Source of the DNA: an uncultured Sulfurovum sp.
GTDB lineage: Bacteria; Campylobacterota; Campylobacteria; Campylobacterales; Sulfurovaceae
Assembly: GCA_947313765.1 (NCBI GenBank)
Contig: CAMZNQ010000171.1
Location: 1 to 13,208, forward strand
DNA: 13,208 nt
Direction: 5' to 3'
The first letter of the stretch is position 1, and each line of letters opens with the position of its first letter. Shown here in pieces: positions 5,405 through 8,310 of the stretch. The notes under the pieces were generated by a model, which had not been told where the DNA came from, did no database searches, and saw only the letters and a list, made by a program, of their open reading frames with translations. The position numbers and the translations under genes are program-made.

Positions 5405-5422
5405 GTAGATATCTCTACCTAA
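5401..5422. terminator. Hairpin shared by kdsA and murJ ends
   Basis: A perfect 9-bp stem (TTAGGTAGA / TCTACCTAA) closes a TATC loop. The TAG of kdsA (5402-5404) lies in one arm and the TAG of murJ (5415-5417, minus strand) in the other. Neither side has a U-tract, so it may act as an mRNA 3'-end stabiliser or a weak terminator rather than a classical one. Confidence 0.5.
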
Positions 5423-6833
5423 TCCACCCCATAATCAATCCATTAATATATATTAAAAATATTGCAGAGACAATTAGACCTACTATAAGATAGATACTCT
5501 TTTTAAGATTTAATATATTTAAAATTTTATCAAACCCAACCCCTTTTAGAGTTAGTATAAAAAATATAAATCCACCAATACTTCCAGATAGTGCAAGACC
5601 CATTGCCCCCATATAGCTCATAAGTATAAATGATATAGTGACATTAATCATTAGAGTAACTGTTGCAATCTTTGCTGCTTTGGTATGCTCTTTGTTTGCA
5701 TATAGGAACAGAGAGAATAGTTTTGCTAAACCGTAAGGGATAAGCCCTAGCATATACATACTTAGTACATCTGCTGTATCTTTTGTCATGGTTGGGGTAA
5801 AGTTTCCTCTCTCAAAAAGTAACCATACAATTGGTTCAGATAAGATTATCCCCATTAGTGTAGCTACTCCAAGGAGGGCTAATAGAATCCAAAATACACG
5901 GCTTAGATGTTGATATGCTAAGGTTTCATTTCCATGTTTTAGAGCTTTTGAGATGGCAGGGAAAAGAGCCATAGATGCAGCAATAGCAATGATAGCAAGA
6001 GGTAATTGAAATACACGATTTGCATAGAATAGATATGATATAGAGCCTGAAATAAGGAAAGAGGCTAGAATGGTATCTATGAAAGATGAGAGTTGAGGCA
6101 TTGAGTTTCCCCAAACAAATAGAAAAAAAAGACGATTAAAAAGCTTTGTCTCCTCTTTTAACTCTTTCTGTTTACTCTCTTTATTTCTATATTTCCAACC
6201 ACCTATTAAAATACGATGCATGTTAAATTTTTTAATTGCAATAATATGAGCTGTTACTTGCAGTAATCCACCAATTAGAACAGCAATAGATAGTGCAAAT
6301 ATGATTGTTTTAGGTTCATTGCCCATATAGATTATGAGAGCAGAAATCATAGAGATATTTAGAAGAGCAGTAGAGAGTGCAGTTGTGGCAAAATGTTCTC
6401 TATATTGAAGTAGGGTAGCTAAAAAAGTAACAATGAAAACCAAATCTAAATACCAAAAGTTTATGGCAGTTAAGGGTGCAGAAGAGGCTATCTTTTCATC
6501 ACTCCAACCAACAGCAATGGCTTTTGTAAGAAGTTCTGGAAAGATAGTTACAAAGATGGACATCAATACCAAAATAAGCATAAAACGTAAAAAAATAGCC
6601 GTAGCAAATACCCCTTTCTGTTTAGAGGCTATAAATGATGGCATAAATGCTTGAGTAAAAGCACCCTCTGCAAAGATACGCCTAAAAAGATTTGGAAGTT
6701 TGAAAACGACAAAGAAAATATCTGAATACCCCGAAGCTCCAAGAGCTGATGCCATGAGGACATCACGCCCTAGACCTGTAACACGAGAGAAGAGAATGCC
6801 AAAACTATTTGTAAAAATTGATTTTAATTTAAT
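5415..6833 (-). CDS. murJ: Lipid II flippase MurJ (MviN), probable ATT start
   Basis: MurJ is the MOP-superfamily flippase that moves lipid II across the inner membrane for peptidoglycan synthesis. The protein is hydrophobic throughout, consistent with 14 helices, and includes the family block FKLPNLFRRIFAEGAF. The longest frame with a standard start begins at ATG 6755, but that drops the first helix. Open frame continues upstream and encodes FTNSFGILFSRVTGLGRD, which is strongly family-like and includes the counterparts of the essential E. coli Arg18 and Arg24 (here Arg17 and Arg23). No ATG, GTG or TTG lies between the in-frame stop upstream and this block. A perfect AGGAG (6845-6841) is 7 bases before an ATT codon (6833-6831) followed by Lys-Leu-Lys. 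With ATT as start the product has 472 residues. A sequencing error or mutation of ATG is the alternative. The gene lies 49 bases after pyk and is likely co-transcribed with it. Confidence 0.95.
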   Translation of the reverse strand: MKLKSIFTNSFGILFSRVTGLGRDVLMASALGASGYSDIFFVVFKLPNLFRRIFAEGAFTQAFMPSFIASKQKGVFATAIFLRFMLILVLMSIFVTIFPELLTKAIAVGWSDEKIASSAPLTAINFWYLDLVFIVTFLATLLQYREHFATTALSTALLNISMISALIIYMGNEPKTIIFALSIAVLIGGLLQVTAHIIAIKKFNMHRILIGGWKYRNKESKQKELKEETKLFNRLFFLFVWGNSMPQLSSFIDTILASFLISGSISYLFYANRVFQLPLAIIAIAASMALFPAISKALKHGNETLAYQHLSRVFWILLALLGVATLMGIILSEPIVWLLFERGNFTPTMTKDTADVLSMYMLGLIPYGLAKLFSLFLYANKEHTKAAKIATVTLMINVTISFILMSYMGAMGLALSGSIGGFIFFILTLKGVGFDKILNILNLKKSIYLIVGLIVSAIFLIYINGLIMGWIR

Positions 6834-6845
6834 GATAATACTCCT
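6831..6845 (-). promoter_or_regulatory. murJ Shine-Dalgarno and ATT initiation codon
   Basis: The minus strand reads AGGAG, then TATTATC, then ATT AAA TTA AAA. Spacing of 7 bases is ideal for the ATT at 6833-6831. The in-frame codons ATT and ATC just upstream are spaced 1 and 4 bases from AGGAG and fit less well. An in-frame TAA stands about 20 bases upstream of the ATT, so no more distant start is possible. Confidence 0.65.
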
Positions 6846-6882
6846 AAAATTTTAACACTAATTCTATCTAAAAAAAATAATA

Positions 6883-8310
6883 TTAAAACTCTAAATTTAA
6901 AACAGCCTCCATTCCCTCACGATTTAGTAGCCTAATAAAGTTTGTCGAGCCTGTTTTACCTGTTGTTGCACCCATTGTGATTATAAATCTACTATCCATA
7001 GTTGCATATTTCTTTTCCAATATCTCATATACAAAATCATAGATAAGTCTAGTTGGATTTTTTATCTTATCCATAATAAAGAGTGGATTGACTCCCCAAA
7101 CTATATTTAATTTTCTATGTGTTTTTAGTGAGTGACTAATGGCATATATGCTCTGTTTGGGTCTAAATTTTGATAGAGATTGAGCAGATGTTCCAGACAT
7201 GGTAAATGATACAAGTGCCTCTTTATCTAAATTTTTTGCTAACTCTACAGCAGATTTAGCTACAGCATCATCTATGCACACTTTTGAGAACTCTTTAAAG
7301 TAGGGATACTCTTTCTCTACATCTTTAATCGTATCGTGTAGTACCTCTACAGCTTCTAGTGGAAATTTACCAATTGTAGTCTCATCACTTAACATAACAG
7401 CATCAGTTCCATCATATACAGCATTTGCAATATCACTAACCTCTGCACGTGTAGGGAATGGATTATCTTTCATGGTAGTCAACATTTGAGCAGCCGTTAT
7501 GGATGGTTTATTCATTCTATTTGCTGTTGCAATAATATGTTTTTGAATTCTTGGAAGTTTTGTAACCCCAAACTCTGCACCCAAATCTCCACGAGCAACC
7601 ATAACTCCATCACAAAGTCCTAAAATCTCCTCTAGGTTATTGATAGCCTCTCCTGTCTCTATTTTTGCAATGATAAAAGGGTCAAAATCATTATCTTTCA
7701 TAATCTTTTTTGCTTTCAAAATATCCTCTTTTGTCTGTACAAAAGATAGTGCAATAATATCAATATCATTTTTAGAACCAAACTCTAAATCTTTAATATC
7801 TTTTTGAGTTATGGATGATATTTTTAGTTTAGTTTTTGGAAAATTAACCCCTTTTTTAGAGGTTAGTTCCCCACTATTTAATAGTTCTAGTTCTAAATGG
7901 TTTTCATCTTTATCTATAACTACTGTTTTTATTGTTCCATCTGCAAAAAAGACTTCATCTTCAATCTCTACCATATCTATTATCTTTGGATAAGATAGAG
8001 CTAGAGAGTAGATATCATCACTATTATCCTCTTTTGTTAGTTTTAGTTTATCTCCAACATTGAGTTTTAGTACACCATCAATATCGCCAATTCTAACTTT
8101 TGGCCCTGAAATATCTTGAAGAATAGCCACCTCTTTTTTTAGCTCTTTTGAAGCTTGACGAATAGAGTTTATCGTCTTTGTATGTGTTTCGTAATCCCCA
8201 TGAGAGAAGTTTAATCTAAATACATTTACACCTTTTTTTATTAATTTTTTTATCATCTCTAATGATGAGGTTGCAGGTCCTACTGTTATAACTATTTTTG
8301 TTTTACGCAT
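6883..8310 (-). CDS. pyk: Pyruvate kinase
   Basis: Pyruvate kinase transfers phosphate from phosphoenolpyruvate to ADP, the last step of glycolysis, in the cytoplasm. The 475-residue length is typical of bacteria. Visible motifs: KIVITVGPA (5-13), FRLNFSHG (31-38, substrate-binding Arg32), QDISGPKVRIG (65-75), the active-site AKIETGEA (215-222, catalytic Lys216, metal ligand Glu218), ARGDLG (239-244, metal ligand Asp242), and MLSDET (306-311). The usual ATQML motif reads AAQML (273-277): Ala274 replaces the Thr implicated in proton transfer (yeast Thr298, rabbit muscle Thr328). MLSDET also differs from the common MLSGET. The C-terminal domain holds GATTGKTGSTN near the end. ATG start with AAAGGAA about 10 bases upstream. 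It is divergent from ruvA and lies upstream of murJ in a probable two-gene unit. The enzyme call is firm; catalytic competence with Ala274 is less certain. Confidence 0.96.
   Translation of the reverse strand: MRKTKIVITVGPATSSLEMIKKLIKKGVNVFRLNFSHGDYETHTKTINSIRQASKELKKEVAILQDISGPKVRIGDIDGVLKLNVGDKLKLTKEDNSDDIYSLALSYPKIIDMVEIEDEVFFADGTIKTVVIDKDENHLELELLNSGELTSKKGVNFPKTKLKISSITQKDIKDLEFGSKNDIDIIALSFVQTKEDILKAKKIMKDNDFDPFIIAKIETGEAINNLEEILGLCDGVMVARGDLGAEFGVTKLPRIQKHIIATANRMNKPSITAAQMLTTMKDNPFPTRAEVSDIANAVYDGTDAVMLSDETTIGKFPLEAVEVLHDTIKDVEKEYPYFKEFSKVCIDDAVAKSAVELAKNLDKEALVSFTMSGTSAQSLSKFRPKQSIYAISHSLKTHRKLNIVWGVNPLFIMDKIKNPTRLIYDFVYEILEKKYATMDSRFIITMGATTGKTGSTNFIRLLNREGMEAVLNLEF

Follow-up and report, generated by a model that had tools for sequence, protein, structure and literature searches.

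Few bacterial genes are documented with an AUH start codon (AUU, AUC or AUA), and the case described here concerns murJ, the gene of the lipid II flippase. In Escherichia coli, infC and pcnB start at AUU. Staphylococcus aureus infC (AUA), cvfC1 (AUU) and ccpN (AUA) are described as having an AUH codon behind a strong Shine-Dalgarno (SD) sequence, with both elements conserved in relatives and with reporter expression below that from AUG (PMC13009471). Streptomyces sigR has a GTC start which is conserved in Streptomyces and was misannotated, and its repression by IF3 was demonstrated (PMC5472188). No paper joining murJ, the start codon and AUU was found among the open-licence PMC literature.

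The murJ gene studied here is similar to the S. aureus genes in its AUH start behind a strong SD, but the genes are different ones and those of S. aureus have extended SDs instead of the core AGGAG/GGAGA found before murJ. Further, reporters were used there (PMC13009471), and the murJ start, predicted from sequence, changes repeatedly within one genus. With sigR it shares a non-canonical start, a strong ribosome-binding site and a misannotated start, although sigR begins at GUC, encodes a stress sigma factor and is known to be repressed by IF3 (PMC5472188). Compensatory evolution, in which a suboptimal start is joined to a stronger SD as in murJ, is described mainly for GUG and UUG (PMC5622118). 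Thus, murJ appears to join the known AUH- and GUC-start genes with a strong SD, and its evolutionary turnover would be unusual among them.

In the window, i.e., the whole stretch of DNA analysed (13,208 nucleotides from an uncultured Sulfurovum sp., genome G000), the initial annotation had placed the start of murJ at a non-canonical ATT codon (Table 1). The murJ frame does lack ATG, GTG and TTG upstream of 6755, as had been stated, and CTG is likewise absent between TAA 6854-6852 and ATG 6755-6753; after the stop, the minus strand reads AAT TTT AGG AGT ATT ATC ATT AAA TTA AAA TCA and so on. The perfect AGGAG noticed earlier, seven bases 5′ of ATT, was found again at 6845-6841, and it is a strong, well-spaced SD of the core, not the extended, type. 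The protein predicted from ATT begins with Met-Lys-Leu-Lys, and its residues 5–17 form the tryptic peptide SIFTNSFGILFSR. RNA folding of the start regions of the window and of loci L005, L007 and L009 was no better than that of shuffled sequences (z −0.39 to 0.98), and Rfam gave zero matches in window positions 6400-7300. A possible −10 element, TAGAAT, is common to the leaders of the window and of locus L002, while a sigma-70 scan returned no minus-strand site at 6861..6866.

Table 1. Elements of the murJ start region and their positions in the window.
Feature	Position	Strand	Basis
murJ, lipid II flippase	5415..6833	minus	472 codons counted from ATT, then TAG stop; TIGR01695 and PF03023 matches
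ATT, inferred murJ start codon	6831..6833	minus	aligns with relatives' ATG and with ATA/ATC of four other genus genomes
AGGAG, Shine-Dalgarno	6841..6845	minus	7 bases 5′ of ATT; duplex energy −6.8, strongest of 5 ATH leaders
Spacer TATTATC, AGGAG to ATT	6834..6840	minus	sequence
ATT ATC, two more in-frame near-cognate codons abutting inferred start	6834..6839	minus	sequence
TAA, in-frame stop shutting murJ frame upstream	6852..6854	minus	sequence
TAGAAT, possible −10 of murJ promoter (tentative)	6861..6866	minus	by eye and hexamer match
MurJ codons 2–26, most of helix 1	6756..6830	minus	pN/pS 0.078 (four ATH genomes); helix 2–31 in model
CGT, R17 (E. coli MurJ R18)	6783..6785	minus	alignment to 7wag; invariant in 33 sequences
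CGT, R23 (E. coli MurJ R24)	6765..6767	minus	alignment to 7wag; invariant in 33 sequences
ATG, first ATG/GTG/TTG of murJ frame, residue 27	6753..6755	minus	some gene callers start here; upstream duplex energy −4.0

Conserved neighbours of murJ were searched for with six window genes, and only ruvA lies near murJ, in four of ten loci. With this result, it is improbable that murJ translation is coupled to an invariable upstream gene. In the window (6885-8310), an ORF resembling pyruvate kinase by eye lies between ruvA and murJ, while in L002 (395-949) ruvA is directly upstream of murJ. Despite the differing upstream gene, the surroundings of the possible −10 element are similar in both.

A scan of genome contigs yielded 110 stretches encoding relatives, and the best 80 of them were used. 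Among 34 genomes of the genus searched, murJ was found in 26, and its start was readable in all of them: 21 have ATG and five have ATH, i.e., ATT in the window, ATA in G011 (L005) and ATC in G030 (L007), G032 (L009) and G033 (L106). In each of the five, GGAG is located exactly seven bases 5′ of the ATH codon. The ATG of the relatives aligns exactly with the ATT of the window, which, with ATA or ATC and a same-spaced GGAG in the four other genomes, supports the non-canonical start proposed initially. ATT itself is not conserved, as the nearest relative, L002 (92% protein identity), has ATG. At the outset, ATT had been expected to be either conserved or an error; instead, the start codon alternates repeatedly between ATG and ATH. 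The murJ gene of a more distant Sulfurovum (L023) starts with TTG. A motif script located 102 murJ starts in the window and the fetched loci. After identical leaders and those with fewer than 60 bases upstream were dropped, 81 distinct leaders were kept (75 ATG, five ATH, one TTG). Four loci missed by the script (L076, L079, L080, L107) have ATG by eye. As side observations, a single TAA lies within the murJ frame of G004 (L090, G004:C255:2253-3656), and a record titled Bathyarchaeota archaeon MAG (L046) holds a Sulfurovum-like murJ with 65% identity, perhaps on a mis-binned contig.

Anti-SD duplex energies lay between −6.4 and −6.8 in the five ATH leaders. The TTG leader had −6.1, and the 75 ATG leaders had a median of −2.4. 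A strong SD is associated with a non-ATG start of murJ (Fisher p 1.4e-6, which is optimistic because the leaders are related). For 542 conserved starts of G000, G030 and G032 taken as background, the median was −4.2, and about 27% had values at or below −6, so the SDs of the ATH leaders are good but not extreme. The ATG leaders of murJ have weaker SDs than 461 background ATG starts (p 6.6e-14, with differing species mixes and related rows). That murJ carries a single strong initiation element, either AUG or SD, is a tendency, since five of the 75 ATG leaders have an SD at or below −6. The SD-like sequence before ATG 6755 is moderate (−4.0) and near the background median, and a short second product is, therefore, possible. 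The codon preceding the start is ATH in all five ATH leaders compared to 28 of 75 ATG leaders (p 0.01); these tandem codons may be due to chance or may offer a second near-cognate start. Seven of the 75 ATG leaders, in which an SD is nearly absent and a −10-like hexamer lies 5–8 bases away from ATG, are predicted to be leaderless; this is no convincing excess over 29 of the 542 background starts. Conversion between leaderless and leadered mRNAs has been described in the phylum of this bacterium (PMC3847290).

The encoded protein scores 330.6 bits from ATT and 300.2 bits from ATG 6755 against the NCBIfam model murJ_mviN (TIGR01695), both above the cut-off of 235.55, i.e., 30 bits are lost upon truncation. 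The Pfam model MurJ (PF03023) is blind to this difference (327.1 bits full-length, 327.4 truncated), as it matches the protein only from residue 27 onwards. In an alignment with 7wag, residues R17, R23 and R273 correspond to R18, R24 and R270 of E. coli MurJ (R270/R273 counted by eye), which are reported as essential (PMC9973255). Counting ATT as residue 1, R17 and R23 are invariant in 33 aligned relatives and precede ATG 6755, in agreement with the early observation that conserved helix 1, including the counterparts of R18 and R24, is encoded 5′ of the first ATG. A structure predicted from 33 sequences (mean pLDDT 76, residues 1–4 below 50) has a single helix at residues 2–31; judging by this model, a start at residue 27 would take away most of helix 1.

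Selection was assessed in four ATH genomes (window, L005, L007 and L009; L106 was left out as too short). Summed over the six pairs, codons 2–26 contain 60 synonymous and 14 non-synonymous differences (pN/pS 0.078), compared to pN/pS values of 0.102 for codons 28–52 and 0.202 for codons 53–130. Hence, codons 2–26 are under purifying selection among these genomes. Upstream, the frame is closed by stops within at most 12 codons in the window, L005, L009 and L106; in L007 the adjacent codon is already a stop. Between L007 and L106, leader length varies by seven bases, so the stretch before the start is not read in frame. Taken together, these results indicate that translation begins at or beside 6833.

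A MurJ tree of 67 rows was computed after removal of the first 26 residues. On it, the four ATH rows require four start-codon changes, and this number stays the same if poorly supported branches are disregarded. The window (ATT) clusters with L002 (ATG) with a support of 99/95. The murJ start would, on this tree, have changed at least four times between ATG and ATH in the Sulfurovum-like clade. Eight changes are needed if nine truncated protein clusters are counted as non-canonical. Among 120 listed of 3,705 matches, at least nine clusters begin exactly with MAS[A/V]LGAS (P0008, P0009, P0010, P0012, P0015, P0031, P0034, P0035, P0041); these protein entries probably represent further ATH murJ genes. 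P0045, P0046 and P0051 start at other internal places and were excluded from this count. P0050, which is the protein of L005 (ATA), also begins at this internal Met, but the same protein is present at full length as P0028 (source NCBI), beginning with MKLKSIF. The expectation that automated annotation truncates murJ at an internal ATG holds for entries like P0008 and P0050; on the other hand, P0028 demonstrates that not every pipeline truncates. A survey reports one AUG-to-AUU switch among 61,358 ancestral AUG starts (PMC5622118), a number which may be too low because it relied on annotated starts.

Orthologs were surveyed for ATH starts in 304 gene instances, with flagged genes judged by eye, and then in 600 instances (49 of G000, 260 of G032 and 291 of G030; some genes are counted twice due to overlapping stretches and loci of the same genome). 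In the larger survey, 114 instances were flagged, and only those were retained for which a more upstream canonical start exists in an ortholog; consequently, a gene with ATH in both orthologs could escape the added part. With this limited filter, no clear ATH gene besides murJ was found in the 600 instances. An ABC-transporter gene of G000 (L237:10069-11778, contig C260) carries AAA, next to nine consecutive A, where the relatives have ATG; the missing start is perhaps an assembly error. A peptidase-like ORF on the same contig (L237:4218-6683), whose start falls within a region conserved with G030, seems to be frameshifted. For the remaining flagged genes, either a canonical start is close by or the ORF is short or shifted, as judged by eye.

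E. coli infC resembles murJ in its AUU start, whereas in the Sulfurovum genus every one of the 23 infC loci read out of 30 has TTG as the start, preceded by GAAGG (L109-L138; G000, G030, G032 and G033 are included, G011 is not). Thus, no IF3 autoregulation via an AUH start is seen in the genus. IF3 itself scores over the cut-off in 31 of 34 genomes. In the incomplete genome G000, 23 tRNAs were found and 22 read, among them two CAU tRNAs with features which we take to be of the initiator type. With murJ as the only clear ATH gene among the 600 instances, infC starting at TTG in the loci read and ordinary CAU tRNAs, the initiation apparatus looks ordinary and murJ appears as a special case.

Based on these comparisons, we consider it likely that murJ has a real but weak, SD-compensated AUH initiation, similar to infC, sigR and ccpN. 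AGGAG would position the 30S subunit at AUU 6833-6831, where an ordinary initiator tRNA (anticodon CAU) would pair with the first two bases, mispair with the third and deliver formyl-Met, giving a full-length MurJ of 472 residues. We infer that initiation occurs at this AUU and not at a neighbouring ATH codon. A start one or two codons upstream, at ATC 6836 or ATT 6839, is improbable: an ATH codon does precede the start in every ATH leader, but the ATG of the relatives aligns to 6833, and the spacing to GGAG would be four or one instead of seven. A start at ATG 6755, yielding a MurJ of 446 residues without helix 1, would use the sole canonical start, at which several database entries begin and which has an SD-like sequence. 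Nevertheless, we regard it as very improbable, as the selected codons 2–26 hold residues reported as essential and the same Met is also found in most loci whose ATG start lies further up. No more credible is an altered apparatus, i.e., a variant initiator tRNA or a lax IF3 with ATH starts widespread in the lineage. ATH starts of murJ do occur in several genomes of one genus, but the survey of 600 gene instances with its limited filter, the CAU tRNAs of the incomplete genome G000 and the distribution of IF3 described above speak against it. The assemblies are draft metagenomes and the nearest relative has ATG, which might suggest a base error, the possibility raised at the outset; however, five genomes carry three different codons at equal SD spacing, and the leader of the window differs from that of L002 at many positions. 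A base error at ATT is, therefore, excluded in practice.

A more probable rival shares the AUU start and differs only in its purpose, with no regulation involved. ATH may be nearly neutral and tolerated since the SD was or became strong, with ordinary MurJ output, and to this we give only slightly less than an even chance. Repeated changes in both directions and the association with SD are expected from compensatory drift, and a similar association for GUG/UUG has been published (PMC5622118). On the other hand, known AUH and GUC starts are reported to cut expression strongly (PMC5472188, PMC13009471), and the ATG leaders of murJ are weaker than background ATG starts, suggesting that low initiation itself is retained. 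In SD-compensated AUH initiation as we favour it, we would expect a weak start against which IF3 discriminates, with the strong SD compensating in part, and the clade would alternate between AUG, usually joined to a weak SD, and AUH, joined to a strong one. Low murJ output, IF3 sensitivity and a throttle on wall synthesis may follow. A further reading, which we consider doubtful, is that murJ is kept in IF3-disfavoured states, namely predicted leaderless AUG in some species and SD-driven AUH in others, and that evolution swaps them while the coupling is retained. It is based on the action of IF3 against both kinds of start: raised IF3 is reported to inhibit model leaderless mRNAs (PMC9031893), and in vitro it acts against weak pairs at the third position, e.g., AUU with CAU (PMC10158994). 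The lack of a convincing leaderless excess counts against it.

For the clade, the finding points to an annotation fault, as MurJ entries from an internal Met lack the greater part of helix 1 together with two arginines. The changes on the gene tree, at least four, would be natural replicates for studying why AUG is abandoned and how the ribosome-binding site compensates. If the coupling to IF3 were true, the capacity for lipid II flipping would follow the ratio of IF3 to ribosomes, and growth of the wall would thereby be tied to the translational state.
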